A stretch of DNA of 64,000 nt, taken from Terrabacter sp. Root181. GTDB taxonomy: Bacteria; Actinomycetota; Actinomycetes; Actinomycetales; Dermatophilaceae. The notes under the pieces are model-generated. The model worked only from the letters and a program-made list of their open reading frames with translations, searched no databases and was not told the origin of the DNA. Each line of letters starts with the position of its first letter. Positions within the stretch are counted from its first letter, which is position 1. Positions 16,139 through 40,157 of this stretch are shown piece after piece. The stretch is taken from positions 890,891 through 954,890 of the forward strand of contig NZ_LMHU01000001.1 in NCBI RefSeq assembly GCF_001428505.1, written 5' to 3'. Made by a program: the position numbers and the translations under genes.

Positions 16139-16582
16139 CTACCTGGCGTCGGCGGCCGTGAGCGTGTCGGCGTAGGCGCGGGCGTGGATGGCGTCGAGGA
16201 TCGACAGCTGCGCGTTCCCGACCGCCCAGTCGGCGAAGTCGAGGGCCTCGGCCGCATCAGCCTCTGCCCAGTCCGCGTCGGTCGTGGCCACCTTGGCGTC
16301 CATGTGGAGGGCCCGCTTGTCCATGTTGGCCTTGACGTCGCTCCTCTTCGCCGCAGCGTCAGCCTTCAGCTGTGCCCACTTGGCCCGAGCACCGTCGGCG
16401 GCCTCGGAGACGTCCTGCCGGGCGTCCTGGACGGACTGGTCCAGGACAGCCTGGGCCTGGTCGATCCGCTCCTTGAGCTGCGACTCGGACTCGGTCGCGG
16501 CCGTCTGCACCGCGGACCTGGCCGTCCCGACCCGCTGCTGCAGATCGTCCAGCCGCTCAGAGAAGTTCGTGTGCTGTGTCAT
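16139..16582 (-). CDS. Alanine-rich helical protein, phasin-like candidate
   Basis: A 147-residue, almost wholly alpha-helical protein rich in Ala, Asp, Glu and Lys, with amphipathic heptad-like stretches (for example FSERLDDLQQRVGTARSAVQ and KERIDQAQAVLDQSVQDARQ) and KADAAAKRSDVKAN in the middle. It has no signal peptide. The ATG at 16582 has a GAAGGTGG ribosome site; an upstream ATG at 16741 would run through the operator. The operator 52-81 bases upstream matches those of the nearby phaC and aromatic genes. Phasins coat PHA granules and have this composition, so a granule-associated role is inferred from context; similar helical proteins of unknown role also exist in actinobacteria. Confidence 0.6.
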   Translation of the reverse strand: MTQHTNFSERLDDLQQRVGTARSAVQTAATESESQLKERIDQAQAVLDQSVQDARQDVSEAADGARAKWAQLKADAAAKRSDVKANMDKRALHMDAKVATTDADWAEADAAEALDFADWAVGNAQLSILDAIHARAYADTLTAADAR

Positions 16583-16633
16583 GGGTACCACCTTCACTAG
16601 ATTCCGGCCCACTAGGGCCTCTTGTTCATTTCC

Positions 16634-16663
16634 TGCACTATTGACGATATCGTCAGTAGTGCA
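16634..16663. promoter_or_regulatory. TetR-type operator A, upstream of the phasin-like gene
   Basis: A 30-bp palindrome with one mismatched pair, core TGACGATATCGTCA at 16642-16655 and outer arms TGCACTA/TAGTGCA. The core matches sites B, C and D around phaC and tetR, so the adjacent TetR protein is the likely binder. Confidence 0.75.
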
Positions 16664-16787
16664 GATTGGCAAGTGCGCGGAGGCCCATGTGACGTAGGCC
16701 TCAGTTCGCTCAGGAGACTTCGTCGGATGGAAGCGAGGCACCTGAGGGTCTCCCGGCTCGACCTCGGCAGAACGGGGTAGGCGGGCG

Positions 16788-17618
16788 TCAGTCGCCGGAC
16801 CAGGCGTCCTCGTCTCCCTGTGAGGTCAGGAAGCTCGAGACGAGCGGGCCGAGCTCGTCGGCGGCGGTGAGGAGCCCGAGGTGGCCGTCGTCGAAGACGT
16901 GGATCGAGGCATGGGGCAGCAGGGTGAGCATCAGCCGCGCATTGACCAGTGGAATCATCGGGTCGTCTGTCCCGGCGAGGATCAAGGTGCGCTGCCGGAT
17001 CAGTGGCAGGGCCGGAAGGCTCGACCAACCCACGCCCGCGAGGAGCTGGAGGACGTAGCCGGTTGAAGAGCCTGAGCGCTCGGGCTCATACGCCACAGGC
17101 CTGACTTCGTCGGGCCGCCCACGCATCCGGCCGCCGTACAGCTCCGCCGCGATGGACCGGGCATATGCCGGGTCGCGATAGCGCCGGGGCGTCAGCATCT
17201 TGCTGAGCAGGGTGAGGCGTCCTGGCACCATCAACATGCCGGTTCCGGTGCTGACCAGCACCAGCCGACGGCAGCGTCGCGGGAACTGGAAGGCGAGCTG
17301 TTGGGCGAGGCCCCCGCCCCAAGAGATGCCGAGGGTGTCGAACCGGTCGTAGCCGAGCCGGTCGAGCAGCGTCCCCACGAAGCACGCCAGCAGGGCGAAG
17401 TTGTACGGCACCCTCGGCGTCGGGGAGCCACCCACGCCAGGTACGTCGAACCGAACCACCTCGATCCGTGGGTCGACCTCGTCGACAAAGGGCTGGAGCA
17501 GGTCGAGGCTGGCGCCGATACCGTTGCAGAGCACCAGCGGTGGGCCTGGTGCCGTGCCCGGCCGGACTGACACCCGGACGTCGTGGCCGAGGACACGGAG
17601 CCGCTGGGACTCGGTCAT
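16788..17618 (-). CDS. phaZ: Intracellular PHA depolymerase (alpha/beta hydrolase)
   Basis: This 276-residue alpha/beta hydrolase closely follows the layout of the medium-chain PHA depolymerase PhaZ. The nucleophile elbow is GISWGGGLAQQLAF with Ser99; the acid is in LAGTDDPMIP near 218 and the catalytic histidine is FDDGHLG, His246. After the elbow the protein reads RLVLVSTGTGMLMVPG and then LTPRRYRDPAYA, the PhaZ-specific segment. It would hydrolyse stored polyhydroxyalkanoate to monomers. The ATG at 17618 overlaps the restored phaC stop by four bases (ATGA), so the pair is translationally coupled. Because of the phaC frameshift, the uncorrected reading runs phaC straight into this gene. Confidence 0.8.
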   Translation of the reverse strand: MTESQRLRVLGHDVRVSVRPGTAPGPPLVLCNGIGASLDLLQPFVDEVDPRIEVVRFDVPGVGGSPTPRVPYNFALLACFVGTLLDRLGYDRFDTLGISWGGGLAQQLAFQFPRRCRRLVLVSTGTGMLMVPGRLTLLSKMLTPRRYRDPAYARSIAAELYGGRMRGRPDEVRPVAYEPERSGSSTGYVLQLLAGVGWSSLPALPLIRQRTLILAGTDDPMIPLVNARLMLTLLPHASIHVFDDGHLGLLTAADELGPLVSSFLTSQGDEDAWSGD

Positions 17619-19277
17619 CGGTCGAAGACGTAGGTGCCGGGCGCCTCCACCAGCAGGCTCAGGCTGTGCGACCCGAGCGTCTCGGGTGCTGGACGGAGCT
17701 GGCCACAGCGCTCGTCCAGCCACAGTCCGAGATCGGTCCACCAGCTGCCCGGCTGGAGATCGGAGCCCCCCCAGCCACACCGCGGCGTCGGATGTCATGT
17801 CGTCGTTGGTGTGGAAGGACGCCTTCGGGTTGCCGGGCGGGTTGACCAGGGCAGCGATATGACCACTGGTCGACAGCACGAAGCGGGTTCTCCCGCCCAC
17901 GTGCTGAGCGCTTCGGTAGCAGTTCTCCCACGGGGTGATGTGGTCGGCGATGCCGGCCACCACATAGGTGTCAACGGTGATCGTGTGAAGGTCGATCGGC
18001 ACGCCGAGGACGGTGAGGGCCCCAGATCGTGCGAGCGAATGGTCCATCGCCAGGTCGACGAAGTCAGCGTGCAGTGCGGCGGTCATCCGGGTGGTGTCGG
18101 AGTTCCAGAACAGGATGTCGAACGCCGGGGGCCGCCTCCCCATCAGGTAGTTGTTCACCCAGTAGTTCCACACCAGGTCCCCGGGCCTCAGCCATGCGAA
18201 CACCTCGGCCAGCGCCCGCCCATCCAGGTATCCCTTGCGTGCCGATGTCGCCTTAGCGTGGCTCGCCAACCGCTCGTCGACGAGGGCGGACACCGTCTCG
18301 GCGTCCCGGCTGTCGAAGGCCGTCACCGCCAGGCAGAGCGCGGCCAGCCGGTCCTGCTGGCCGATACCGGTCAGGTAGGCCGCCGTCATGCTGGCGAGGA
18401 TGCCGCCTGAACAGACACCCCCGAGCACCGTCTGCGCGTTCCCCGTGATCTCCTCAACTGCCCCCAGAGCTTCGAGGATGGCGTCGACATAGGTGTCGAA
18501 GTTCCAGAATGCATGCGCCGGGTCCGGGTTGCGCCAGGAGATCACGAACACCTGCCTGCCCTGCCGGACCCCGAACTCGACGAGGCTCCTCGTCGGGGCG
18601 AGGTCGATCGCGTAGAACTTGTTGATCGTGGGCGGGACCACGAGCGTCGGCACCTCGTAGACCTCGTCGGTCTGCGGGGTGTACTGGATCAGCTCCAGCA
18701 CCTCGCTGCGGAAGACGACCCCGCCGCCGGTCGCGGCGATGTTGTCGCCCACGACGAAGCTGGCGCTGTCGACCATCTCCGGCAGGCGCGGGGCCGAGGC
18801 CATGTCCTTGACCAGCTGCCTGCCCCCGCGGACCAGGCTCAACCCTGCTGTGTCGATGGCCGCCTTGGCCGAAGCAGGGTTGACGAGGGGGACGTTGCTG
18901 GGGGCGACCGCCTCGGCGACGTTGTCGAGGAAGAACCGCGCGCGCGCACGGTCGCGTGGGTCCAGGTCGGCTTCGATCAGGAGCTGCTCGGCGGTGTGGC
19001 GGCCGGCCAGGTAGAGCTGGACCAGGCGTCTCAGCAACGGGTTCTCGATCCAGGCGACGTCGGTGAACCGGCGGTCCGCGCGGTGCGGCGCGAGCGTCGA
19101 GGTCCCGCTGAGGATGCGTCCTGCCTCGGCACCCAGCTCGCCCAGTCGTCGAGCAGCTCTCCCCGGAGTGCGCGCGAGAGAGACTCCCCACTTCGCCGTG
19201 GACCTGTCCGGAAGGAAGCGGTTCAGGGGGCCAAGGGCGGCGTCGACGAGAAGGGCGTCGAAGGTCGGGGTGCTCAT
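17615..19277 (-). CDS. phaC: Class I-type polyhydroxyalkanoate synthase, frameshifted near its 3' end
   Basis: PHA synthase polymerises hydroxyacyl-CoA into storage polyester. The start ATG at 19277 has GAGGAG eight bases upstream. The triad is complete: the lipase-like box GGVCSGG with Cys289, Asp445 in VAGIADHITPW, and His473 in STSGHIAALVNPP. Near residue 504 a run of seven G (complement of 17766-17772) breaks the frame. With six G the frame reads GGSDLQPGSWWTDLGLWLDE and continues to EAPGTYVFDR and a TGA at 17615, the standard PhaC ending, for a total of 553 residues. As written, the frame loses this end and fuses into phaZ. It may be a sequencing error, a true mutation or slippery decoding. 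Confidence 0.85.
17766..17772 (-). other. Frameshift at a G7 homopolymer in phaC
   Basis: The plus strand carries seven C here, seven G in the coding strand. Removing one base restores the conserved PhaC C-terminus and a stop coupled to phaZ by ATGA. Before the run the frame is PhaC-like (DAAVWLGG); after it, the written frame loses all PhaC similarity. Confidence 0.8.
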
Positions 19278-19348
19278 CGGAGAGTCTCCTCAGCGTCTTC
19301 AGGCGGCCATGGGGAGGGCCACCGCTGGACTGAAGAATACCTCGTTAG

Positions 19349-19362
19349 TGATGATTTCGTCA
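19349..19362. promoter_or_regulatory. TetR-type operator B, upstream of phaC
   Basis: The core TGATGATTTCGTCA differs from the site A core at two positions and is flanked, as at site A, by a TAG-type arm on each side (CGTTAG before, GTAGCG after). It lies about 72 bases upstream of the phaC start and just beyond the 3' end of tetR. Confidence 0.65.
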
Positions 19363-19409
19363 GTAGCGTTCGAAGAGACTGTTGTCGTCGATGGCGGGAG
19401 GACCGGAGG

Positions 19410-20075
19410 TCAGGCCGCCGAGCCGTCGCCGGGTGCCGCGTCGAGGTCAGGCAGGGGCAGCGAGCAGATCCGCCGCGCCCGTTGCCGGGGCACACCGAAC
19501 ATGCGCAGCAGGTCCTCAGCCACTCGGTCGGTGGTCTCCTCGACGTCACGGGCCGGCTGGGCGTGCAGCAGGTGGCCGAGGCCGAGCAGGGCTCCGGCAC
19601 TCATCGTGACAGCCACGTCGAGGTCCTCGACGTCGAAGCGCCCGGCATCGACGGCTGCCGCGATGTCCCGGCGGACTCGTGGTGCCAGGCCATTGTCGGC
19701 GCTGAGCAGCCGGAACACGTTGTTGAGAAGCACCTGGCTGAGTTCCGGCTCCCGCCGGTGCAGTCGCCCGGTGAGCCGGAAGCTGCAGGCGAACACCTCT
19801 GCGGGGTCCTCTATGTCGGCGGTCAGGTTGTCGAGCAGCTCGCCGTAGGCGTCCATCACTGCTTCGACCGCGGCCTCGAACAGCTGCTCCTTGGTCTCGA
19901 AGTGGTTGTAGAAGGACCCCATCCCGACGTCAGCTGCCTGAGTGATCTCCAGGATCGGCACGTTCGTCCTGCCCTCGGCAATGAGCGTCTGCGCGGCCCG
20001 GATGAGAGCCGCTCGCGTCCGGGCCTTGCGACGGTCCAGTCGGTTGCTCTGCTGCTGCGCTGGGACGTTGCTCAC
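19410..20075 (-). CDS. TetR-family repressor of the PHA/aromatic gene region
   Basis: A 221-residue TetR-family regulator. The DNA-binding helix-turn-helix is in residues 12-60 (ALIRAAQTLIAEGRTNVPIL, then ITQAADVGMGSFYNHFETKE), the FYNHF signature being diagnostic; the rest is the helical ligand and dimer domain. The GTG at 20075 was chosen because GAGGAG lies five bases upstream; the longer ATG start at 20108 lies almost on top of the best -10 element. It stands divergent from the aromatic operon and follows phaC on the opposite side, with matching operators in all three control regions. The inducer is unknown; an aromatic acid or its CoA ester is a reasonable guess. Confidence 0.82.
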   Translation of the reverse strand: MSNVPAQQQSNRLDRRKARTRAALIRAAQTLIAEGRTNVPILEITQAADVGMGSFYNHFETKEQLFEAAVEAVMDAYGELLDNLTADIEDPAEVFACSFRLTGRLHRREPELSQVLLNNVFRLLSADNGLAPRVRRDIAAAVDAGRFDVEDLDVAVTMSAGALLGLGHLLHAQPARDVEETTDRVAEDLLRMFGVPRQRARRICSLPLPDLDAAPGDGSAA

Positions 20076-20133
20076 GGCCGCTCCTCTTGTCTGGGTCTCG
20101 TTGTGCATCCACCCTAGCGCGTCCAGTCAGGAA

Positions 20134-20147
20134 TGACGATTACCTCA
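20134..20147. promoter_or_regulatory. TetR-type operator C, over the tetR promoter
   Basis: Core TGACGATTACCTCA, one base from the site D core; the match extends over GAATGACGATTAC. It is 44 bp (about four helical turns) from site D. Reading the minus strand, it covers the expected -35 position for a TAGGGT -10 element at 20116-20111, consistent with autoregulation of tetR. Confidence 0.7.
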
Positions 20148-20154
20148 GAAACCC

Positions 20155-20184
20155 TTGACTGAGCATGTGGTCATGAATGACGAT
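20155..20184 (+). promoter_or_regulatory. Probable promoter of the aromatic operon
   Basis: TTGACT at 20155-20160 is a good -35 element. With an 18-base spacer, GACGAT at 20179-20184 is the best -10 candidate and falls inside operator D, so repressor binding would block it. The assignment is by eye. Confidence 0.45.
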
Positions 20185-20191
20185 TACGTCA
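20178..20191. promoter_or_regulatory. TetR-type operator D, upstream of the aromatic operon
   Basis: Core TGACGATTACGTCA, a near-perfect palindrome, sits 22 bases before the ATG of the extradiol dioxygenase gene and overlaps the predicted -10. It shares GAATGACGATTAC with site C. Confidence 0.75.
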
Positions 20192-20213
20192 GAAGATCAA
20201 CGGAGGAGCGGCA

Positions 20214-21347
20214 ATGACCAGTCACCACGGAACCCACACCGACCTGCACTGCGAGCAGGGTGCGCTGCCTGCTGAGCACCCGGGACGCGCAAGGAACCCC
20301 GTCATCAAGGTGCTCGACCTGGCCTGGCTCGAGTTCGTCAAGCCCGACCTCGTTGCCTCGGAGCGCTTCGCGCACGCGTTCGGGTTCACCACGGTGAGCA
20401 GGACGGTGGACGAGCTGCAGCTGAGAGGCAACGACCCGGGCGCGCCCTGTGTGATCGTACGACGCGGGCCACGTTCGAGGTACCTCGGAGCGGCCTTCCG
20501 CGCCGCGGAGACCGTCGACCTGGTGCGGCTGGCCGGGGCCACCTGCACGAACGTCGAGACGCTTCCGGAGAGCATCGGCGGGCTCACCGTGGACCTGACC
20601 GACCCGAGTGGTGGCATGGTCCGGGTTGTCGCCGACACCCACGAGCTGGCAGCCCTTCCGCCCCAGCCGACACAGCAGTTCAACTTCGGGCACGACGTCC
20701 GACGCGCCAACACCACGCAGCGGCCGCCACGTGCACCCGCGACGATCCAGCGACTGGGCCACGTCGTGCTCCAGACCACGAAGTACATCGAGTCGCTGAA
20801 CTGGTACCTCCAGCACCTGGGTCTCATCGTCAGCGACTTCAAGTATTACGAGGGGCAGCGTGAGCGCGGCCCGACGATGAGCTTCATCCGGTGTGACCGA
20901 GGCACGACCCCGAGCGACCACCACACGCTGGCGATGATGCTCGGGCCCAGTAACCGGTACGTGCACTCGGCGTACCAGGTGGGAGACCTCGACGCGTTGG
21001 CCGCCGGCGGGGAGTATCTCCGCGAGCTCGGCTTCAACCGCTCGTGGGGAATTGGTCGCCACATCGAGGGCAGCCAGATCTTCGACTACTGGCGCGACCC
21101 CGACGGGCTCCTGGTCGAGCACTTCGCGGACGGTGACCTGTTCGACTGCACGTTGGAGCCTGGCTGGTCGCCGATGACCGCATCCGGGCTGGCTCAGTGG
21201 GGACCACGGGCCACCAAGGACTTCCTCGGTCTCACGCCAGGACGAGACCTGGCGCACGAGCTTGTCTCGATGGCTCGCTCACTGCGCGACAACAACGAGT
21301 TCGACCTGACCCGCCTCCGCGGCATGCTGAAAGTGACGAGCTCATGA
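20214..21347 (+). CDS. Type I extradiol (meta-cleavage) dioxygenase, VOC superfamily
   Basis: A two-domain vicinal-oxygen-chelate dioxygenase of 377 residues that should open a catechol-type ring next to its hydroxyls using Fe(II). The three metal ligands of the catalytic C-terminal domain are visible: His183 in RLGHVVLQT, one of His236/His237 in SDHHTLAMM, and Glu302 in DGLLVEHF. The second-shell residues His251, His283 and Tyr292 (DYWRDPDG) also match the family. GGAGG precedes the ATG at 20214. It heads a five-gene operon under the operator pair C/D. The exact catechol is unknown; the MhpA-like hydroxylase downstream suggests a dihydroxyphenyl-alkanoate. Confidence 0.83.
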   Translation: MTSHHGTHTDLHCEQGALPAEHPGRARNPVIKVLDLAWLEFVKPDLVASERFAHAFGFTTVSRTVDELQLRGNDPGAPCVIVRRGPRSRYLGAAFRAAETVDLVRLAGATCTNVETLPESIGGLTVDLTDPSGGMVRVVADTHELAALPPQPTQQFNFGHDVRRANTTQRPPRAPATIQRLGHVVLQTTKYIESLNWYLQHLGLIVSDFKYYEGQRERGPTMSFIRCDRGTTPSDHHTLAMMLGPSNRYVHSAYQVGDLDALAAGGEYLRELGFNRSWGIGRHIEGSQIFDYWRDPDGLLVEHFADGDLFDCTLEPGWSPMTASGLAQWGPRATKDFLGLTPGRDLAHELVSMARSLRDNNEFDLTRLRGMLKVTSS

Positions 21348-22282
21348 GCACCACGATCCTCCGCACGACGGACTCCTGGTGGGTCCGCACTCCCGGCGGC
21401 GCCGCCCGCATCGACACCGACGCCACGACCACCCGCGGGCTGCTCGCCGGGCCCACGCGGATCGACGCCGCCCGGGGCACCACGACGACCGTCGACCCGG
21501 CCACCCTCGATGTGGTGTCCCCGGTGACGGCACCCTGCCGGGTCGTGGCGCAGATGACGAACTTCACCAGCCATGTGAAGGACGCAGGTCTCAACCCCGA
21601 CACCATCCCGCTGACGTTCTTCCGCAAGACGTCGGGCTCGATCAGCGGCCCGTTCGACGACATCATCCGCCCCGACCACGTGCGCTTCCTCGACTACGAG
21701 GTCGAGATCGGCCTGGTCATCGGTCAGGCAATCCCAGTGGGCACGCAGGTCACCGCCGACAACTGGACCACGTTCGTGGCCGGCCTCGTCGTGACCAACG
21801 ACGTCTCGGCCCGCGACGTGCAGCTGCCGAAGACCCAGTTCTTCGAGTCCAAGTCGTACCCGACCTTCACGCCCGTCGGCCCGGCGCTGGTCCTGCTCGA
21901 CGACCATGAGCTCAAGCGGTTCGGCGACCTACGCCTGCGCCTGTGGGTCAACGGCCAGCTGCGCCAGGACTCGGTGGTCGACGGCGACATGGTCTTCTCC
22001 CCGCTCGAGGCGCTGCAGGCGCTGAGCCGGTTCCAACGCCTCGACCCGGGTGACCTGCTCCTCACCGGGACCCCGGAGGGGACCGCCCTGAGCGCACCCC
22101 CGAAGCCAGTCGAGATCATTGCCGCGTTCCTGCCGCCCGCCCTGAAGTGGAAGGTCTTCTTCAAGCGGCAGGCCCAGAACCCCAAGTACCTCAAGCACGG
22201 CGACGTCGTCGAAGTCTCCATCGGCAGCGACGACGGGGCCATTGACCTCGGTCGTCAGCGCACTGTCGTGAGGACAGCATGA
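21344..22282 (+). CDS. Fumarylacetoacetate hydrolase-family protein
   Basis: A 312-residue protein of the FAH superfamily, whose members hydrolyse, hydrate or decarboxylate ring-cleavage products. The metal-binding pair is in FLDYEVEIGLVIG near residue 108 with the third acid in VTNDVSARDVQ near 151, and the substrate loop FFESKSYPTFTPVGP follows. The C-terminal TGTPEGTALSAPP is the family GTP-type loop. It overlaps the dioxygenase stop (ATGA), so it probably acts on the meta-cleavage product. Whether it is a hydrolase or a 2-hydroxypentadienoate-type hydratase cannot be told from sequence. Confidence 0.82.
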   Translation: MSTTILRTTDSWWVRTPGGAARIDTDATTTRGLLAGPTRIDAARGTTTTVDPATLDVVSPVTAPCRVVAQMTNFTSHVKDAGLNPDTIPLTFFRKTSGSISGPFDDIIRPDHVRFLDYEVEIGLVIGQAIPVGTQVTADNWTTFVAGLVVTNDVSARDVQLPKTQFFESKSYPTFTPVGPALVLLDDHELKRFGDLRLRLWVNGQLRQDSVVDGDMVFSPLEALQALSRFQRLDPGDLLLTGTPEGTALSAPPKPVEIIAAFLPPALKWKVFFKRQAQNPKYLKHGDVVEVSIGSDDGAIDLGRQRTVVRTA

Positions 22283-24165
22283 TGGGCGACCTGCTCTCGC
22301 CGACGTACGACGGGCCTGGCGATCTTGCTGCCATCGAGGCCATACCGCTGACTGACCGTGGCCTGCCGGGCACGACGTACGAGCTCCTCGTCCGGGCCGC
22401 CGGTCTCTGGCCGGACCGCGTCGCCCTGTCCGTGCTCCCGGACGGCGAAGGGTGGGAGCAACCGGCGGAGCGCACCCATGCCCAGCTCCTGATGGACGTG
22501 CATCGCTACGCCAACGTGCTCCACACGCTCGGCGTGCGCCGCACCGACGCGGTCGCACTCCTCGCCCCGAACTGCGACGAGCTCGTCACCGCAACGCTCG
22601 CTGCCCAGCTCGCCGGCATCGCCGCGCCGATCAACAGCGGGCTCTCCGAGGACCACATCGCCGAGCTGCTGCGCAGGTCGGGCGCCCGAATCCTCGTGGC
22701 CGCCGGCCCCGACCTCGCGCCCGAGGTCTGGGAGCGTGCCCGCGAGCTCGCCGCCGACGCCGGGATCGAGGCCGTCCTGGCCCTGAGCGCGACGGGCGCG
22801 GGCCCGGTTGAGGCAGAGCTGTGCGCTATCGACGGCATCCGGGTCGGGCACCTATCCGCCCTCGCGGCAGGACAGCCACACGATGCCTTCGTGGGTGAAC
22901 CGCCCTCGGCCGCCGACCTCGCCGCTCTCTTCCACACGGGCGGCACGACGGGCCTGCCGAAACTCGCAGCGCACACCCACGCCAACGAGGTCAGCGACGC
23001 CTGGATGATCTCTGTCACCGGCATGCTGCACGACGACGCGGTGATCTTCGCGGCCTTGCCGCTCTTCCACGTCAACGCACTCCTTGTCACCGTTCTTGGC
23101 CCGCTGTTCAGAGGACTCCACGTCATCTGGGCCGGCCCTCAGGGCTACCGCGACCACGCGCTCCTCTCAAACTTCTGGAAGCTCGTCGAGCGTTATCGGG
23201 TCACCACGATGAGCGCCGTGCCCACCGTGTACTCCGTCCTCGCTGGCCATCCCCTGGACGCCGACATCAGCAGTCTCCGCTTCGCCGTCGTCGGCGCATC
23301 CCCCCTGCCCCTGGCGGTGCGGGACGGCTTTGAGGCCGCCACCGGCATCCAACTGGTCGAGGGCTACGGCCTCACCGAGGCCACGTGCGTGAGCGCACTG
23401 AGCTTTCCTCACCACCCACGTCGGGAATCCGTCGGCCAGCGGCTGCCGTACCAGCAGGTGAAGACCGTCAAGGTCACCGACGACGGTGAGTGGGTCGACC
23501 TGCCGGCCGGTCAAGTCGGCGTCCTCGCCATCAGCGGACCGACCGTGTTTCCCGGCTACGTCAGCGGCCGAAGTCCCGACGGGCCCGGGCTGGACGGGCT
23601 GGGCAAGCTGCGCGACGGCTGGCTGGACACCGGAGACCTGGCCTGGGTCGACCCGGACGGCTTCATCCACCTCGCCGGCCGAGCCAAGGACCTCATCATC
23701 CGCGGCGGTCACAACATCGACCCGGCGGTCATCGAGAACGTGCTGCTGGCACACCCGGCGGTCACGGCTGCGCAGGCGGTGGGCCGTCCGGACCTGCACG
23801 CCGGCGAGGTGCCGGTCGCGTTCGTCACCGTCGCATCCGAAGCCAACCCGACCCCCGAGGAACTGCGGGCCTGGGCCGCCGACCACGTCCCCGAGCAGGC
23901 GGCAGCACCCAAGACCGTCACCGTGCTGGACGCGCTCCCGGTCACTCGGGTGGGCAAACACTTCAAACCGGCCCTGCGCGCCGAGGCCACCCGAGAGGCC
24001 GTCGCAGACGCCCTGCGCGACATCGCCTCGGTCACGTCCGTCCGAGGGGCCGTCGAGGACGGTGCTGTCGTCGCCGTCGTCACTCTGGCCCGCGGCGCCG
24101 ACCAGACCCCGGTCAGGGAAACACTCGACCGCTTTGCCATCACCTGGAGATTGGAACTGTCATGA
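22279..24165 (+). CDS. AMP-forming acyl-CoA synthetase
   Basis: A 628-residue member of the ANL superfamily that activates a carboxylic acid to its CoA thioester through an acyl-adenylate. The P-loop-like signature FHTGGTTGLPKLAAHTHANE is near residues 216-235, EGYGLTEATCVSALS near 363, the hinge WLDTGDLAWVDPDGF and GRAKDLIIRGGHNID near 450-482, and the catalytic lysine is probably in RVGKHFKPALR near 558. The start is ATGA-coupled to the FAH gene; a second ATG follows immediately. In this operon it may activate the side chain of a phenylalkanoate or its cleavage product, supplying CoA esters for beta-oxidation or PHA; this is inference. Confidence 0.88.
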   Translation: MMGDLLSPTYDGPGDLAAIEAIPLTDRGLPGTTYELLVRAAGLWPDRVALSVLPDGEGWEQPAERTHAQLLMDVHRYANVLHTLGVRRTDAVALLAPNCDELVTATLAAQLAGIAAPINSGLSEDHIAELLRRSGARILVAAGPDLAPEVWERARELAADAGIEAVLALSATGAGPVEAELCAIDGIRVGHLSALAAGQPHDAFVGEPPSAADLAALFHTGGTTGLPKLAAHTHANEVSDAWMISVTGMLHDDAVIFAALPLFHVNALLVTVLGPLFRGLHVIWAGPQGYRDHALLSNFWKLVERYRVTTMSAVPTVYSVLAGHPLDADISSLRFAVVGASPLPLAVRDGFEAATGIQLVEGYGLTEATCVSALSFPHHPRRESVGQRLPYQQVKTVKVTDDGEWVDLPAGQVGVLAISGPTVFPGYVSGRSPDGPGLDGLGKLRDGWLDTGDLAWVDPDGFIHLAGRAKDLIIRGGHNIDPAVIENVLLAHPAVTAAQAVGRPDLHAGEVPVAFVTVASEANPTPEELRAWAADHVPEQAAAPKTVTVLDALPVTRVGKHFKPALRAEATREAVADALRDIASVTSVRGAVEDGAVVAVVTLARGADQTPVRETLDRFAITWRLELS

Positions 24166-24515
24166 ACCCCACAACGATCCTTGCCGGCCTTCTGGTCGTG
24201 GCCTTCACAGCCGTCGGCACCGCCAAGCTCGCCGCCGTGCCAGCCATGCGCGCCAAAGCCGAACACGTCGGCTTCAGCGTCACCGCCTACCGACGGATCG
24301 GCCTCCTCGAGGTCCTCGGTGTCGTCGGCCTGCTCGTCGGCGCGTTCGTCCCGGTCATCGGCGGCCTGGCCGCCGCCGGACTCCTGATGCTCCTCGGAGG
24401 GGCAGTCGTGGCCCACGTCCGGGGCGGCGACGGCGTACGCGAGATCGCCCCGGCCATCGTCCTGGGTCTGGCGACCGTGAGCTACCTCCTTCTGGTGGTC
24501 GGTGACCTGCGATGA
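24162..24515 (+). CDS. DoxX-family membrane protein
   Basis: A 117-residue protein with four hydrophobic segments typical of DoxX-like proteins: ILAGLLVVAFTAVGTAKLA at the N-terminus, IGLLEVLGVVGLLVGAFV, GLAAAGLLMLLGGAVVAHV and IVLGLATVSYLLLVV. DoxX-like proteins often accompany quinone- or oxygen-dependent redox steps, but their mechanism is not settled. Both ends overlap neighbours by ATGA, so it is an integral part of the aromatic operon. Confidence 0.8.
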   Translation: MNPTTILAGLLVVAFTAVGTAKLAAVPAMRAKAEHVGFSVTAYRRIGLLEVLGVVGLLVGAFVPVIGGLAAAGLLMLLGGAVVAHVRGGDGVREIAPAIVLGLATVSYLLLVVGDLR

Positions 24516-26143
24516 ACCGTTCTCGGCAGACCCGCGACGACCCGATTCCCGTCGTCATCGTGGGGGCCGGGCCCGTCGGCGTCGCCGCCGCCACCCTTCT
24601 GGGCCAGTACGGAGTCGACTGCCTGGTGCTGGACCGCTGGGACGGCGTCTACCCCCAGCCGCGAGCCGTCCACCTCGACGACGAGACCTACCGGATCCTG
24701 GGACGGCTCGGGATCGGCGGGCAGTTCGCTGCCGTGTCCCGGCCCACGCGCGGGCTTCAGCTGGTCGACCGGAACCATCGGGTGTTGGCGGTGTTCGACC
24801 GGACCGGCGACCACGGCCGGCATGGGCACCCCGAGGCCAACATGTTCGACCAGCCCGAGCTCGAGCAGCTGATGCGCACCAACCTCGAGGGCCAGACCAC
24901 GGTCAACCTGCGCGGAAACGTGGACGTCACGGACATCGCCCAGGACGGCCAGGGCCGGGTCAGGGTGGACTTCACCGACCGGCTCACCGGCGAGCGGGAG
25001 TCCGTGCCGGCCACCTTCGTGCTGGGTTGCGACGGAGCCAACAGCGTGGTGCGCGCGGCGATCGGCTCGACGATGGCGGACCTCAAGTTCGACCAGCGCT
25101 GGCTCGTGATCGACGTGGCCAGCAGGGTCGAGCTCGACCAGTGGGAAGGCGTGCACCAGGTCTGCGACCCGGCGCGCGCCGCGACATACATGCGTATCGG
25201 GGACACCCGCTACCGCTGGGAGTTCCGGATGCTGCCGGGCGAGACCGCCGCCGACTTCCAGTCCATCGAAGCACTCCAGCCCCTCATCGGACCGTGGGTC
25301 AAGGGCGTCCCGTGCGACCAGCTCGAGCTGGGCCGCGTTGCGGAGTACACCTTCCGGGCCCAGCTGGCGGACCGCTGGCGAGACCGCAACGTGTTCCTCC
25401 TCGGCGACGCCGCCCACCTGACACCCCCCTTCGTCGGACAAGGGCTGTGCGCGGGACTCCGCGACTCCATGAACCTCAGCTGGAAGCTCGCCGGTGTCCT
25501 CTCCGGAGACCTGCCGGGGTCGGTGCTCGACACCTACGAGGTGGAGCGCAAACCACACGCTCGCGCGCTCATCCAGCTCGCCCGGCTCATCGGTGTCGCC
25601 ATGACGCAGGGCGGCAGGGCCGGTGACCTGCTCCGTGGGGCCATCGCCCCACGGCTGCACTGGGTCCCCGGTCTGCGCGACCGCCTCCTCGACAGCGAGA
25701 CCCCGCCGCTGAGCCGGTCCGCACTGGTGGATGGGGCCGGACGTCGCAGGTCCTTGGCAGGGCGGATGTGCCCGAACGCGCCCCTGACGGAGGACCTCCG
25801 ATATGACGACGTGACACGTGGCGGGTTCGTGGTCGTCAGCGCCGTGCCCCTCTCGCCCGGCCAGCGGGATCTGCTGGCGGGCCGCGGGACCGAGGTGCTC
25901 GAGGTGAAACCAGGCTCGGCGTTGTCCACGTGGCTCGCAGACGGCAAGGCTGTGGCCGCACTGGTGCGACCGGACTTCACCGTGCTGCGCGTCGGTCGCG
26001 ACGTGGCAACGCTCTGCGAGGGAGCACCGACGTTCCTGCAGCGACAGGACCCTCTCGCCCATGCCGTCCCAGGCCACCTGCTTTCCCCGGGTGACCCCGC
26101 CACGTACGGCGGCAACGACGACACTTCTCGCTCGGCATGCTGA
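24512..26143 (+). CDS. FAD-dependent aromatic hydroxylase, MhpA-like
   Basis: A 543-residue group A flavoprotein monooxygenase, closest in layout to 3-(3-hydroxyphenyl)propionate hydroxylase (MhpA). It has the N-terminal GxGxxG dinucleotide fold (IVGAGPVGVAAATLL near residue 16), the DG motif in LGCDGANSVVRAAIG near 171, and the FAD ribityl-binding GDAAHLTPPFVGQG near 298. The thioredoxin-like C-terminal domain of larger family members is present. It would add a second ring hydroxyl using NAD(P)H and O2, providing the catechol for the dioxygenase encoded first in the operon. It is the last gene of the operon; a 289-bp gap follows. Confidence 0.83.
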   Translation: MNRSRQTRDDPIPVVIVGAGPVGVAAATLLGQYGVDCLVLDRWDGVYPQPRAVHLDDETYRILGRLGIGGQFAAVSRPTRGLQLVDRNHRVLAVFDRTGDHGRHGHPEANMFDQPELEQLMRTNLEGQTTVNLRGNVDVTDIAQDGQGRVRVDFTDRLTGERESVPATFVLGCDGANSVVRAAIGSTMADLKFDQRWLVIDVASRVELDQWEGVHQVCDPARAATYMRIGDTRYRWEFRMLPGETAADFQSIEALQPLIGPWVKGVPCDQLELGRVAEYTFRAQLADRWRDRNVFLLGDAAHLTPPFVGQGLCAGLRDSMNLSWKLAGVLSGDLPGSVLDTYEVERKPHARALIQLARLIGVAMTQGGRAGDLLRGAIAPRLHWVPGLRDRLLDSETPPLSRSALVDGAGRRRSLAGRMCPNAPLTEDLRYDDVTRGGFVVVSAVPLSPGQRDLLAGRGTEVLEVKPGSALSTWLADGKAVAALVRPDFTVLRVGRDVATLCEGAPTFLQRQDPLAHAVPGHLLSPGDPATYGGNDDTSRSAC

Positions 26144-26331
26144 CGCCGATACAGTGCGACGTGCGAACGCCGATCACCGTGGCCTGAGAATCCGCCCCAC
26201 CGACTCCACGAGACGCGGAACGGGACACGCTGTGACCTGCCTACCCTGACATCCGTGCGTCTGCAGGTGTGAGCACCTGACACCTCGGTTTCGTCGCCAT
26301 CCCGCCGTTGCTCAGCACGAGAAGGATCACC

Positions 26332-26436
26332 ATGACACCGCAGCTGTTCACCGCAACCAGCCGCCCGGCGCCCGAGCAGGCCTCCTCCAGCTCGGACCGC
26401 CAGGCCGTGAGCTCCCGTCCCGGGAGGGGCCTGTGA
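26332..26436 (+). CDS. Leader ORF (34 aa) overlapping the RNase J start
   Basis: A short frame starts at ATG 26332, nine bases after GAAGGAT, and encodes MTPQLFTATSRPAPEQASSS and then a polar tail. Its TGA overlaps the GTG of the RNase J gene by four bases, so translation of the two would be coupled. The sequence is Ser/Arg/Pro-rich with no known domain. It may be a regulatory leader peptide or a small protein; RNase J genes are often controlled in cis, but that is not shown here. Confidence 0.45.
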   Translation: MTPQLFTATSRPAPEQASSSSDRQAVSSRPGRGL

Positions 26437-28160
26437 GCGCGGGTGGCGGTCGCCGGCCTCAGTCCCGTGGGCGTGGACGCGGCTCCCGACGGTCGTCCCA
26501 GGACATCCCCACGCTGCCGCGCAACGGCCTTCGGATCGTTCCCCTGGGTGGACTGGGCGAGATCGGCCGCAACATGACGGTCTTCGAGCACGCCGGGCGG
26601 CTGCTCGTCGTCGACTGCGGCGTCCTCTTCCCCGAGGAGCACCAGCCGGGCGTCGACGTGATCCTGCCGGACTTCTCCTGGATCCGGGACCGTCTCGACA
26701 AGGTCGACGCGATCGTGCTCACGCACGGTCATGAGGACCACATCGGCGGCGTGCCCTACCTGCTGCGCGAGCGACCGGACATTCCCGTTGTCGGCTCACG
26801 CCTCACGCTCGCGTTCCTCGAGGCGAAGCTCCAGGAGCATCGCATCACCCCGGTCTCCGTGCAGGTGAGCGAGGACGACCGCCGCTCCTTCGGCCCCTTC
26901 GACTGCGAGTTCGTGGCCGTCAACCACTCGATCCCCGACGGGCTCGCCGTCGCGATCCGCACCGCAGCGGGCCTCGTCCTGCACACCGGCGACTTCAAGA
27001 TGGACCAGTTCCCCCTCGACGGTCGGGTAACCGACCTACGCGCCTTCGCCCGCCTCGGCGAAGAGGGCGTCGACCTCTTCCTCGTCGACTCGACGAACGC
27101 GGAGGTTCCGGGCTTCACGGTGTCGGAGGGCGAGCTGTCGCCCGCGATCGAAGCGGTGTTCCGGACCACAACGGGACGGGTCATCGTGTCGAGCTTCGCC
27201 AGCCACGTGCACCGCATCCAGCAGGTGCTCAACGCGGCCCGCGACCACGGACGGAAGGTGTCCTTCGTCGGCCGGTCGATGGTCCGCAACATGGGCATCG
27301 CCGCCGACCTCGGCTACCTGGACATCCCCCAGGGCCTGGTCGTCGACCTCAAGCAGCTCGAGCGCCGGCCCGCGAACGAGATTGCCCTGATCTGCACGGG
27401 GTCGCAGGGCGAGCCCCTGGCCGCCCTGTCGAGGATGGCCAGGCGAGACCATCCCATCCGCGTCGCCGAAGGTGACACCGTGCTGCTCGCCAGCTCCCTC
27501 ATCCCGGGCAACGAGAACGCCATCTACCGCGTCATCAACGAGCTCACCCGCTGGGGTGCCAACGTCGTTCACAAGGGCAACGCCAAGGTGCACGTCTCCG
27601 GCCACGCCAGCGCCGGCGAGCTCGCCTACTGCTACAACATCGTCCAGCCCTCCAGCGTGCTGCCCGTCCACGGGGAGTGGCGCCACCTGCGAGCAAACGC
27701 CGACATCGCCATCCGCACCGGCGTCGACCCCAAGCGCGCCCTCATCGCCCACGACGGCGCCGTCATCGACCTCGTCGACGGCCAGGCGACGATCACCGGC
27801 ACAGTCCCCGCCGGCCTCGTCTACGTCGACGCCATGACGGTCGGCGGAGCGACCGAGGAGTCCCTGCACGTGCGCCGCACCCTCGCCGAGGAAGGGGTCA
27901 TCACCATCGTCTGCATCGTCGATCCCGACACCGGCAAGCTCACCGAGGAGCCCGACTACCTCGCCCACGGGTTCGAGCACGAGCCCGGCGACTTCGCCAA
28001 GGCCACACCGGCCATCCAGAAGGCGCTCACGACCGCCACCAAGGAGGGCATCGAGGACATCGAGCAGGTCGAGGAGCTCGTCCGCCAAGCCATGTCCACC
28101 TGGGTCCACCGACAGGCGCGCCGCAGCCCCCTCATCATCCCCGTCATCGTCGACGCCTGA
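26433..28160 (+). CDS. rnj: Ribonuclease J
   Basis: RNase J is a metallo-beta-lactamase-fold ribonuclease with 5'-exonuclease and endonuclease activity, acting in mRNA turnover and rRNA processing. The 575-residue protein has the metal motif LTHGHEDHIGGVPY near residue 96, the DSTNAEVPG stretch near 221, the beta-CASP domain (IVSSFASHVHRIQQVLNAA near 251, ICTGSQGEP near 317, VHVSGHASAGELAYCY near 388) and HGEWRHLRAN near 409. The basic N-terminal extension rich in Arg and Gly is common in actinobacterial RNase J. GTG 26433 follows GGGAGGGG and overlaps a leader ORF. Confidence 0.93.
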   Translation: MSAGGGRRPQSRGRGRGSRRSSQDIPTLPRNGLRIVPLGGLGEIGRNMTVFEHAGRLLVVDCGVLFPEEHQPGVDVILPDFSWIRDRLDKVDAIVLTHGHEDHIGGVPYLLRERPDIPVVGSRLTLAFLEAKLQEHRITPVSVQVSEDDRRSFGPFDCEFVAVNHSIPDGLAVAIRTAAGLVLHTGDFKMDQFPLDGRVTDLRAFARLGEEGVDLFLVDSTNAEVPGFTVSEGELSPAIEAVFRTTTGRVIVSSFASHVHRIQQVLNAARDHGRKVSFVGRSMVRNMGIAADLGYLDIPQGLVVDLKQLERRPANEIALICTGSQGEPLAALSRMARRDHPIRVAEGDTVLLASSLIPGNENAIYRVINELTRWGANVVHKGNAKVHVSGHASAGELAYCYNIVQPSSVLPVHGEWRHLRANADIAIRTGVDPKRALIAHDGAVIDLVDGQATITGTVPAGLVYVDAMTVGGATEESLHVRRTLAEEGVITIVCIVDPDTGKLTEEPDYLAHGFEHEPGDFAKATPAIQKALTTATKEGIEDIEQVEELVRQAMSTWVHRQARRSPLIIPVIVDA

Positions 28161-36479: not shown

Positions 36480-37755
36480 GGGCCACCATCGGCAGGGCGG
36501 AGCGCCGCGGCGGGACCGGGGCGTTGACGGCGTGGGCGGCGTTCTTCGGCAGGGGTCGCGGGCGGTTGGGCAGGGCGAGGCGGAACACCTTGGCCCACGC
36601 CTGGTAGACCTGCTTGGGCAGCGGGCCGGTCGTGTACGGCAGTCCGTAGCGCTGGCAGATCTCGCGCACCTCGACGGCGACCTCGTGGTAGCGGTTGCTC
36701 GGCAGGTCGGGGAAGCAGTGGTGCTCGATCTGGTGGCTGAGGTTGCCGGTCATGATGTGCATGAGCTTGCTGCCCGAGATGTTGGCCGAGCCGAGCATCT
36801 GGCGGATGTACCAGTCGCCGCGGGTCTCGCCCTCGATCTCCTCCTCGGTGAACGTGTCGACGCCGTCGGGGAAGTGGCCGCAGAAGATGACGGAGTGCGC
36901 CCAGACGTTGCGGATGGCGTTGGCCGTGAAGGTGCCGATGAGAGCCTGCTTGCCCGAGCCGAAGGGGACGGCGGCGAGCGGGGTGGCGGCGTAGTCCTTG
37001 GTGAACTGGCGGACGACCTTGCGGCCCATGGCCTTGAGGTCCTTTTTGAGGTCGTCCTTGGACTTCTCGCCGTCCTTGACGGCCTCGAGCTCGAGGTCGT
37101 AGATCGCGATGCCCCACTCGAAGAAGGGCGCGAGGATCATGTTGTAGAGCGGGTTGCCGAGGTTGCCCGGGTGCCAGGGCTGGTCCTCGTCCATGCGCAG
37201 GATGGAGTAGCCCACGTCCTTGTCCTTGCCCAGCACGTTGGTCCACGTGTGGTGCAGGTCGTTGTGCGTGTGCTTCCACGCGGCCGCCGGCGTGACGAAG
37301 TCCCACTCCCACGTGGTCGAGTGGATGTCGGGGTCGCGCATCCAGTCCCACTGGCCGTGCAGGACGTTGTGGCCGATCTCCATGTTCTCGAGGATCTTCG
37401 CGACCGAGAGCATCGCGGTGCCGGCGACGAACGCCGTCTTCTTCTTCGAGAAGAGCAGGGTGGCGCGGCCGGCGACCTCGAGGGTGCGCTGGATGCGGAT
37501 GACCCTGCGGATGTAGGCCGCGTCGGCCGCGCCACGCGTCGCGATGACGCGGTCGCGCAGGGCGTCGAGCTCCTTGCCGAGCTGCTCGACGTCGGCGTCG
37601 GTGAGGTGGGCGGCGGCGCTGGGGCGCTTCGCGGGTCCGCCGGACGCGGCGAGGATCGGCTTGCGGGGCCGGGGCGTCGTGGCGGTGCCGTCAACGACAC
37701 CGGTGGCGGCGTCCCCGAGGGGCGTCGTCGTCGGTCGGTTCGTGGTGGCAGTCAT
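36469..37755 (-). CDS. Membrane acyl-CoA/lipid desaturase
   Basis: A 428-residue integral-membrane fatty acid desaturase with the three histidine boxes of the di-iron site: GHNVLHGQWDW, HTHNDLHHTWTN and HQIEHHCFPDLP. Hydrophobic helices lie between the boxes. It inserts a double bond into an acyl chain using O2 and electrons from a ferredoxin-type partner, which is encoded directly upstream, matching the DesA3 / Rv3230c pairing of mycobacteria. The ATG at 37755 follows AAGGGA. Chain position of desaturation cannot be read from sequence. Confidence 0.88.
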   Translation of the reverse strand: MTATTNRPTTTPLGDAATGVVDGTATTPRPRKPILAASGGPAKRPSAAAHLTDADVEQLGKELDALRDRVIATRGAADAAYIRRVIRIQRTLEVAGRATLLFSKKKTAFVAGTAMLSVAKILENMEIGHNVLHGQWDWMRDPDIHSTTWEWDFVTPAAAWKHTHNDLHHTWTNVLGKDKDVGYSILRMDEDQPWHPGNLGNPLYNMILAPFFEWGIAIYDLELEAVKDGEKSKDDLKKDLKAMGRKVVRQFTKDYAATPLAAVPFGSGKQALIGTFTANAIRNVWAHSVIFCGHFPDGVDTFTEEEIEGETRGDWYIRQMLGSANISGSKLMHIMTGNLSHQIEHHCFPDLPSNRYHEVAVEVREICQRYGLPYTTGPLPKQVYQAWAKVFRLALPNRPRPLPKNAAHAVNAPVPPRRSALPMVARVG

Positions 37756-37768
37756 GGTGGTTCCCTTC

Positions 37769-38839: not shown

Positions 38840-38855
38840 CCTCCTATGGTCGTCG

Positions 38856-38878
38856 CCCAAGCCCCTCGGGATCTTGGG
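38856..38878. promoter_or_regulatory. Inverted repeat in the divergent desaturase/PucR promoter region
   Basis: CCCAAG (38856-38861) and CTTGGG (38873-38878) form a spaced inverted repeat in the 99-bp region between the ferredoxin reductase and PucR starts. It is a candidate operator for the regulator; no defined promoter hexamers were found. Confidence 0.35.
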
Positions 38879-38938
38879 GTGGCGCGTACTCTTTGGAGTG
38901 AGAAACTGTTGCACGACGACAAAATGCAGGAGGTCGAA

Positions 38939-40129: not shown

Positions 40130-40157
40130 GGTCACGTCACGGGCGGGGCCGGGCGCA

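Follow-up and report, generated by a model that had tools for sequence, protein, structure and literature searches.

The window analysed is a 64,000-nt stretch of contig NZ_LMHU01000001.1 (assembly GCF_001428505.1) of Terrabacter sp. Root181, and all coordinates below are positions in this window. The locus at 16139-26143 comprises genes for a phasin-like protein, PhaC, PhaZ and a TetR regulator on the minus strand and a divergent ring-cleavage operon on the plus strand, in the order dioxygenase, FAH-family hydrolase, acyl-CoA synthetase, DoxX-like protein and MhpA-like hydroxylase, with adjacent genes overlapping by 4 bases (Table 1). Every gene named in an earlier sequence-only reading of this DNA was found in its place; missing from that list were the TetR gene and the operators, which tie the two halves together.

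Table 1. Features of the Root181 locus, in window coordinates
Feature	Position	Strand	Evidence
Phasin-like protein, 147 aa, Ala/Lys-rich, amphipathic	16139..16582	-	composition, place, shared operator
Operator TGACGATATCGTCA, perfect palindrome, upstream of phasin-like gene	16642..16655		0 mismatches
PhaZ, intracellular mcl-PHA depolymerase family, alpha/beta hydrolase	16788..17618	-	TIGR02240 265.3 bits
PhaC, PHA synthase nearest class II	17615..19277	-	PF07167 8.9e-51
Run of seven G; PhaC frame lost, runs into PhaZ	17766..17772	-	three-frame translation
Operator TGATGATTTCGTCA, upstream of phaC	19349..19362		1 mismatch
TetR regulator (TetR_C_40)	19410..20108	-	PF21306 1.2e-27
Operator TGACGATTACCTCA, tetR side	20134..20147		1 mismatch
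Operator TGACGATTACGTCA, ring-cleavage operon side	20178..20191		0 mismatches to search pattern
Type I extradiol dioxygenase (VOC fold), 377 aa	20214..21347	+	PF00903
FAH-family hydrolase, 312 aa	21344..22282	+	PF01557 1.8e-47
Acyl-CoA synthetase, 628 aa	22279..24165	+	NF005714 (PRK07529) 734 bits, cut-off 632
DoxX-like membrane protein, 117 aa	24162..24515	+	PF13564 1.8e-21
Group A flavin hydroxylase, MhpA-like, 543 aa	24512..26143	+	NF004829, PF01494

The same PhaC or dioxygenase was found in none of the eight same-genus genomes drawn (one of them just 74% complete), and the third-position GC of the locus genes (0.83-0.88) is below that of most other listed genes; thus, the locus was probably acquired. 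The sole syntenic match to five same-genus stretches was the RNase J gene, from about 26279-26513 onward, and no left border was found. The host is described as a soil bacterium. Its genome has one type III polyketide synthase, which says nothing about the ring-cleavage/PHA locus.

Predicted enzymes of ring cleavage and polyester storage

The dioxygenase aligns to the solved structure 3b59 and carries His183, His237, His251, His283, Tyr292 and Glu302, all invariant among 11 sequences. Following BphC-type enzymes, we take His183, His251 and Glu302 to be the 2-His-1-Glu metal site and assume the same correspondence for the catalytic His/Tyr positions, with His237, His283 and Tyr292 also present. 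A structure prediction from the 11 sequences had a mean pLDDT of 57, too low for a fold search. The solved relatives of the FAH-family protein include 8gsr, 1gtt and the FAHD1 acylpyruvase, and it shows the motifs DYEVEIG and NDVSARD; we propose that it is an acylpyruvate (2,4-dioxoacid) hydrolase. The flavin hydroxylase passes the cut-off of subfamily NF004829 (610.7 bits against 390) and falls under all four cut-offs of the MhpA equivalog PRK06183 (330, 221, 211 and 192 bits against 546, 853, 966 and 1135, respectively). Scores against the hpa models are likewise below cut-off (HpaD, 37 against 321 bits; HpaG-C, 105 against 276 bits), and the mhp and hpa routes were rejected on these scores. 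The ring-cleavage operon contains no enzyme that forms a hydroxyacyl-CoA.

PhaC, the only PhaC_N match in the genome, has Cys289, Asp445 and His473, a triad that aligns with solved synthases (9knj, 2.7e-88; 5hz2, 7.6e-77, the latter included in the triad alignment). Its score against the class II model TIGR01839, 549 bits, is the best among classes I-III and is below the cut-off of 855. PhaZ exceeds the curated TIGR02240 cut-off of 250.6 bits, as does its Intrasporangium oryzae relative with 277.4 bits, and contains the motifs GISWGG, GTDDP and DDGH, whose Ser, Asp and His are presumably the catalytic residues. The sequence-only reading would have been contradicted by a PhaC that is no true polyester synthase; with its catalytic residues intact, this PhaC looks like a true one apart from a frame shift.

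In the assembly, PhaC and PhaZ form a single 829-aa open frame (16788-19277), and its lack of any stop might suggest a genuine bifunctional synthase-depolymerase. Such a fusion is hardly credible, given that its linker is an out-of-frame reading of the PhaC tail: the last ~50 codons of PhaC are out of frame, and the conserved C-terminal stretch WW...APGTYV, in frame in relatives, is intact only in the +1 frame behind the run of seven G. None of the 22 other loci examined with both PhaC and PhaZ has a fused frame; the relatives encode the two proteins as separate genes. We thus rejected a fusion enzyme; judging from these comparisons, the single frame arose through either a frame shift or an error in sequencing. 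The sub-threshold class II score of PhaC and the loss of frame at its C-terminus mean that PHA synthesis in Root181 may be impaired.

The phasin-like gene, whose start we reset to the ATG that follows the operator, stands as predicted by the sequence-only reading. The phasin family does not: the protein has no phasin match in Pfam or NCBIfam, its only family match is a weak one to Apolipoprotein (5.5e-5, below the cut-off), and it was named for its composition, its position and the operator it shares. Copies were found in two Kribbella and Nocardioides ungokensis (76-80% identity), I. oryzae (80%) and Pseudonocardia acidicola (54%); there were none in three genomes with an unlinked phaC and none within reach in N. 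guangzhouensis.

Recurrent linkage and a shared operator

The dioxygenase and FAH genes occur together in all 138 distinct loci examined, and a TetR relative lies within the examined stretch in 129 of them. Besides the Root181 window, phaC is linked to this ring-cleavage module in 5 of the 138 and absent from the stretch in 133; on this distribution, PHA is outside the core ring-cleavage pathway. The linked loci belong to Intrasporangium, Kribbella and two Nocardioides, which form one clade, and separately to Pseudonocardia. In the PhaC tree the linked label needs two changes, most simply read as two gains.

The Root181 TetR is a single copy in its genome at E<=1e-10. All four transcripts (phasin-like gene, phaC, tetR, ring-cleavage operon) are preceded by the palindrome TGACGATATCGTCA or by a close variant of it, and on this basis the ring-cleavage and PHA halves look like one regulon. 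Genome-wide, both exact sites and four of the seven distinct sites with at most one mismatch fall in the locus. Upstream of related dioxygenase genes, the operator occurs with at most one mismatch in 68 of 80 regions, the remaining 12 having only sites with at least two, and several relatives also have a second site at a distance of 43-45 bp. These conserved sites beside tetR suggest that the operator is bound by TetR.

At the same tolerance of one mismatch, an operator precedes phaC in 4 of the 27 loci examined, all four linked (0-1 mismatch in the four linked relatives); the corresponding figure for random pieces is 104 of 3920. The fifth linked locus, L125, also has an operator before phaC. 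L166 has none, as would be expected if its phaC is read through from the operon. Upstream of the phasin-like gene, the identical palindrome is found in two Kribbella and in I. oryzae, where this gene is about 8 kb from phaZ, and a site with one mismatch in N. ungokensis.

A comparison of gene order across genomes had been proposed as a check, and it bears out the linkage in other genera, as a minority arrangement. Together with the shared operator and the intact PhaC and PhaZ residues, the linked gene set supports the earlier claim that ring cleavage is coupled to PHA. That reading also held that the arrangement may be undescribed, which agrees with the open-access literature: among the matches listed on PHA coupling, alkylresorcinol or orcinol clusters, no title or abstract beginning presented a matching arrangement.

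Substrate of the ring-cleavage operon

In relatives, a molybdoenzyme of the pyrogallol-transhydroxylase family replaces or joins the hydroxylase. It matches the pyrogallol hydroxytransferase 4v4c (2.9e-274) and has an AhtL-like domain; according to an excerpt of PMC10100899, the family includes resorcinol hydroxylase. Genes for an FAH protein and an acyl-CoA synthetase are near the molybdoenzyme in seven of the eight plasmid records that carry it. Among the molybdoenzyme loci, that of Ensifer has two short VOC genes, that of Salipiger is without the synthetase, and those of Rhizobium and Sinorhizobium gave no dioxygenase match at threshold. P. hospita has both hydroxylases, so the molybdoenzyme may have a different intermediate as its substrate.

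A second replacement concerns the CoA ligase. An acetoacetate-CoA ligase directly follows the hydroxylase in 13 of the 138 loci (the one scored reached 816 bits, cut-off 521), an acyl-CoA synthetase lies downstream in 70, no locus has both, and 55 have neither within 9 kb downstream, where some stretches end early. All 13 loci sit in one clade of 20 rows, so the swap may be one replacement. Additionally, OmpW or FadL-type porins, P450s and MMPL transporters near some loci hint at a hydrophobic substrate. No hydratase or aldolase is among the identified families that recur in at least 5 of 80 loci, and the HsaD/BphD-type hydrolase seen in 10 loci belongs to a separate set. The swaps of hydroxylase and CoA ligase suggest a resorcinol-type, orcinol-like substrate and a pathway yielding pyruvate and a 3-oxoacid. 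Estrogen/steroid cleavage (aed-type) was considered from the literature alone.

The sequence-only reading had guessed phenylpropionate, cinnamate or hydroxyphenylacetate as the substrate. A phenylalkanoate or hydroxyphenylalkanoate, degraded by an mhp- or hpa-like route under the same regulon, would fit the MhpA-like subfamily of the hydroxylase and the HpaG-type relatives of the FAH protein; with scores below the MhpA, HpaD and HpaG-C cut-offs, no hydratase or aldolase in the identified recurring families and replacements that would be unexpected for such a route, it is very unlikely, and the operon probably has a substrate other than a phenylalkanoate. Flavonoid and stilbenoid A-rings are of the resorcinol type. 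Under the same regulon, a flavonoid/stilbenoid A-ring (fde/ifc-like) or an acylphloroglucinol could be the ring, with PHA storing acetyl-CoA or the side chain. An excerpt of PMC11069340 describes this kind of attack on naringenin by the flavin monooxygenase FdeE and the glyoxalase-fold dioxygenase FdeC, and a resemblance of the Variovorax ifc cluster to them. A lipid agrees better with the fatty-acyl-type CoA synthetase and with the OmpW/FadL-type porins, P450s and MMPL transporters nearby, and we consider a flavonoid/stilbenoid or acylphloroglucinol ring unlikely.

Proposed pathway and comparison with known systems

We give about an even chance to a single TetR regulon in which polyester storage is tied to the meta-cleavage of a phenolic of the resorcinol type; 5-alkylresorcinols, whether orcinol homologues or resorcinolic lipids, are the most likely substrates. 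The flavin hydroxylase would add a third hydroxyl to the ring, the dioxygenase would open it to a 2,4,6-trioxoalkanoate, and the FAH hydrolase would split this into pyruvate and a 3-oxoalkanoate, which the acyl-CoA synthetase would convert to 3-oxoacyl-CoA. A putative reductase encoded elsewhere in the genome would then form (R)-3-hydroxyacyl-CoA for polymerisation by PhaC, with the phasin-like protein as granule coat and PhaZ remobilising the polymer. TetR would keep the four transcripts repressed via TGACGATATCGTCA and release them once the substrate or an intermediate appears. More tentatively, with the chances somewhat against it, we propose a 'phenolic lipid to bioplastic' regulon: the alkyl chain of a 5-alkylresorcinol would be freed as a 3-oxoacid and, after activation, end up in medium- or long-chain PHA. 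This would explain why a single repressor serves the genes for cleavage and storage and why these have been transferred jointly from one actinobacterial family to another.

The shared operator could also be real while PHA serves as a stress or carbon-overflow buffer: on exposure to hydrophobic phenols, PhaC would use any monomers available, and cleavage would not feed storage directly. The many module loci lacking phaC in the examined stretch and an operon without a monomer-supplying reductase are consistent with such a buffer. Nevertheless, a single reduction would turn the predicted synthetase product into a PHA monomer, so a direct route would be economical, and the PhaC tree, read most simply, has the linkage arising twice; we regard a buffer as rather unlikely. 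If the coupling of 5-alkylresorcinol cleavage to storage is true, it would provide a genetic basis for resorcinolic lipid breakdown in actinobacteria, explain the PHA synthase under the same operator in some carriers, and supply both an operator-repressor pair for direct use and a way of making polyesters from phenolic lipids, with side chains set by the substrate.

The mcl-PHA operon of Pseudomonas, phaC1-phaZ-phaC2-phaD with the phasins phaF and phaI, is fed by phenylalkanoates. The Root181 locus resembles it in a synthase nearest class II, a depolymerase over the TIGR02240 cut-off, a phasin-like gene and a predicted link between an aromatic growth substrate and PHA; it differs in its single PhaC, in the TetR operator shared by ring-cleavage and PHA genes, and in that the linked operon itself would cleave the ring. 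The orcinol meta pathway of Pseudomonas putida proceeds through 2,3,5-trihydroxytoluene and 2,4,6-trioxoheptanoate. The likeness to it lies in the predicted reaction order (hydroxylation, extradiol cleavage, acylpyruvate hydrolysis), to which the Root181 locus adds a CoA ligase and PHA genes. In 2,4-dinitrotoluene degradation, DntD and DntG cleave trihydroxytoluene and then, by an FAH-family enzyme, yield pyruvate; extradiol cleavage followed by an FAH-family step would be common to both, while the operon differs. The fde (naringenin) and ifc (isoflavone) systems, as described in the excerpt of PMC11069340, are similar in that a flavin monooxygenase and a glyoxalase-fold dioxygenase act on a resorcinol-type ring; they differ in that ifc includes proteins of the alpha/beta hydrolase and cupin types, and PHA genes are unmentioned for fde/ifc in that excerpt. 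Finally, pyrogallol transhydroxylase/resorcinol hydroxylase (PgtL/RhL; excerpt of PMC10100899) is the family of the molybdoenzyme beside the homologous proteobacterial operon, in place of which the Root181 operon has a flavin hydroxylase.

Gene content and the phaC-phaZ frame

All of the genes named in the sequence-only reading are present in the window (contig C1, 890891-954890; see the table), and adjacent genes of the ring-cleavage operon share four-base overlaps. The whole genome holds one PhaC_N match and a single copy of the locus-type TetR (E<=1e-10). The locus looks acquired, since its PhaC and dioxygenase were absent from all eight genomes sampled from the same genus, one of them just 74% complete, and the third-position GC of its genes is below that of most listed window genes.

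Features of the window and of two related loci
Feature	Coordinates	Strand	Remarks
Phasin-like gene		minus	147 aa
phaC/phaZ		minus	
tetR		minus	
Extradiol dioxygenase, FAH hydrolase, acyl-CoA synthetase, DoxX-like and MhpA-like hydroxylase genes			divergent from the minus-strand set
TGACGATATCGTCA or near variant	16642		before the phasin-like gene
TGACGATATCGTCA or near variant	19349		before phaC
TGACGATATCGTCA or near variant	20134		between tetR and the dioxygenase gene
TGACGATATCGTCA or near variant	20178		between tetR and the dioxygenase gene
Run of seven G	17766-17772		precedes the +1-frame synthase tail
RNase J gene	26433-28160		second genome copy 63% identical; both in 5/7 same-genus genomes searched
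Two long open frames	37544-40135	plus; minus	861 aa plus vs 788 aa minus, almost fully overlapping
Phosphoketolase (XFP) gene	48704-51124		
Second set in Intrasporangium oryzae	L032:15993-19786		flanked on one side by the linked cassette and on the other by its phasin-like gene: MhpA-like gene (34%), diverged dioxygenase match (29%), weak alpha/beta-hydrolase match, TetR (54%)
Second set in locus L163	L163:15660-19076		HsaD/BphD-like hydrolase, BphC-like dioxygenase and second MhpA-like gene, adjoining the FAH-type module

PhaC and PhaZ occupy a single 829-aa open frame in the window. Translation of the other frames recovered the conserved end of the synthase (GSWWTDLGLWLDERCG...APGTYVFDR), unbroken, from the +1 frame, and none of the 22 other loci compared has phaC and phaZ in one frame; the four closest have a phaC stop codon overlapping the start of phaZ, and in one of these, N. 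ungokensis, phaC itself is split. With the conserved tail intact and the relatives unfused, a PhaC-PhaZ fusion as a new enzyme was rejected; to judge from the translated frames, the fused frame is a frame shift or a sequencing error, and whether the strain makes PHA turns on that frame shift. PhaC keeps Cys289, Asp445 and His473 when aligned with solved synthases; class II is its best-scoring model, yet it stays below the class II cut-off, and PhaZ is above the mcl-PHA depolymerase cut-off. On the complete chromosome of N. ungokensis (L125), phaC, phaZ, the acyl-CoA synthetase and the hydroxylase each match as at least two pieces in different frames, suggesting sequencing errors or decay.

A palindrome before both gene sets

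Both exact genomic places of TGACGATATCGTCA are in this locus; when one mismatch is allowed, so are four of the seven distinct places. With up to two allowed, the genome has 177 matches against 23 for a reversed-pattern control, but two-mismatch matches mean little because in GC-rich DNA such a motif resembles codons; with up to three, the window has 37 against 21.6 expected. Among the dioxygenase loci with organism names (the best 80 of 546 confirmed relatives), 68 carry an exact or one-mismatch site upstream of the dioxygenase gene, often about 35 bases before it, and 12 have solely sites with two or more mismatches; at 11 of the 80, where no divergent tetR was found within 900 bases, a fixed 250 bases were scanned.

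In the 350 bases upstream of phaC, an exact or one-mismatch site is found at four of 27 loci, all linked to the dioxygenase genes (the window, I. oryzae, K. rubisoli and N. guangzhouensis), and is absent from the other 23, Pseudonocardia included; such a site occurs in 104 of 3920 random 350-base pieces of the loci. N. ungokensis also has such a site before phaC. Two Kribbella and I. oryzae have the exact palindrome before the phasin-like gene, which in I. oryzae is some 8 kb away from phaZ; N. ungokensis has a one-mismatch form before its own. By inspection, the window site before phaC overlaps a -35-like CTGACG, 17 bases from a GTATCC-like -10, and repression through it would be the simple reading. 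We hold it very probable that the ring-cleavage and PHA genes are coupled by one regulon, an arrangement of which no description was found in the literature searched, going by titles and abstract openings.

Linkage in relatives

At least five of the best 80 loci, those of K. rubisoli, N. ungokensis, N. guangzhouensis, I. oryzae and Pseudonocardia acidicola, have phaC within the distance covered, which was up to 10 kb and shorter where a contig ended. In Kribbella sp. VKM Ac-2568 that stretch includes the phasin-like gene and no phaC. An enlarged set of 144 loci with 138 distinct dioxygenases (the window uncounted, one 10-base filler locus excluded) added further genomes and five of 21 plasmid records, taking 20/43, 20/36 and 19/35 of the places found, two more of the last group being already included. 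Anywhere in the stretch, the 138 distinct loci carry FAH (138), MhpA-like (130), tetR (129), acyl-CoA synthetase (74), DoxX (58) and phaC genes (at least 5, a lower bound because of contig ends). All 17 unlinked phaC loci examined have phaZ nearby, with another acyl-CoA synthetase (31-37% identical) in 12 and none at threshold in five.

In the PhaC tree (27 rows, some outer ones on long branches, as the program warned), four linked synthases form one clade (100/100) and Pseudonocardia falls elsewhere; the linked label needs two changes, and two gains of linkage would be the simplest reading. In the dioxygenase tree, the five linked loci other than Pseudonocardia, which stands apart, join Kribbella sp. 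in a clade of six (FastTree support 94) covering Intrasporangiaceae (the family of the window and I. oryzae), Kribbellaceae and Nocardioidaceae, a pattern consistent with cassette transfer; the label test on this tree, which took just the labelled rows into its count, says little.

Ring-cleavage enzymes and substrate

BphC-type catalytic residues, whose roles we take from BphC-type enzymes, are kept in 11 dioxygenase sequences. Hydroxylase and ligase replacements in relatives are informative on the substrate. B. stagnalis and Paraburkholderia sp. PGU19 carry dioxygenase, FAH, acyl-CoA synthetase and OmpW genes, after which come molybdoenzyme and 4Fe-4S protein genes; the MhpA-like gene is absent from the stretch. 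Two B. multivorans records have the same dioxygenase-FAH-synthetase-OmpW operon with an MhpA-like gene, and the molybdoenzyme is absent from the stretch. The molybdoenzyme matches pyrogallol hydroxytransferase (2.9e-274), a member of a family that includes resorcinol hydroxylase according to PMC10100899. FAH and acyl-CoA synthetase genes are nearby in seven of eight plasmid records with the molybdoenzyme, Salipiger being without the synthetase; that of Ensifer has two short VOC genes, and those of Rhizobium and Sinorhizobium gave no dioxygenase match at threshold. On the P. hospita plasmid (L308), a flavin hydroxylase and a pyrogallol-transhydroxylase-like molybdoenzyme share one dioxygenase-bearing cluster.

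An acetoacetate-CoA ligase gene directly follows the hydroxylase gene at 13 of the 138 loci, which all fall within a single 20-row clade of the dioxygenase tree; the one ligase scored reached 816 bits against a cut-off of 521. Downstream, 70 loci have the acyl-CoA synthetase, none both ligases and 55 neither. Relatives of the BphC-like gene of L163 occur at eight of the 80 loci (L163 itself, L147, L157, L168, L180, L181, L187 and L192).

OmpW or FadL-type porins near the ring-cleavage genes in some relatives, together with neighbouring BM3-like P450s (11 loci), another P450 (20 loci) and MMPL transporters (13 loci), suggest a hydrophobic substrate. In orcinol chemistry, a 5-alkylresorcinol is hydroxylated and then opened by proximal extradiol cleavage to a 2,4,6-trioxoalkanoate, which acylpyruvate hydrolysis converts to pyruvate and a 3-oxoalkanoate. 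If the locus follows these steps, a 5-alkylresorcinol would be hydroxylated and opened to the trioxoalkanoate, hydrolysis would release pyruvate and the 3-oxoalkanoate, and the CoA ester of the latter would be one reduction short of a PHA monomer, which would account for the CoA ligases and PHA genes together. We consider a resorcinol-type ring likely; that an alkylresorcinol side chain feeds PHA directly is a tentative proposal, with the balance somewhat against it. Among known aromatic routes, the hydroxylase is MhpA-like but below the cut-offs of the MhpA equivalog models, and the locus proteins did not pass the hpa models; the fde/ifc pathways, as presented in PMC11069340, lie behind the main rival reading of the substrate, in which it would be flavonoid A-rings.
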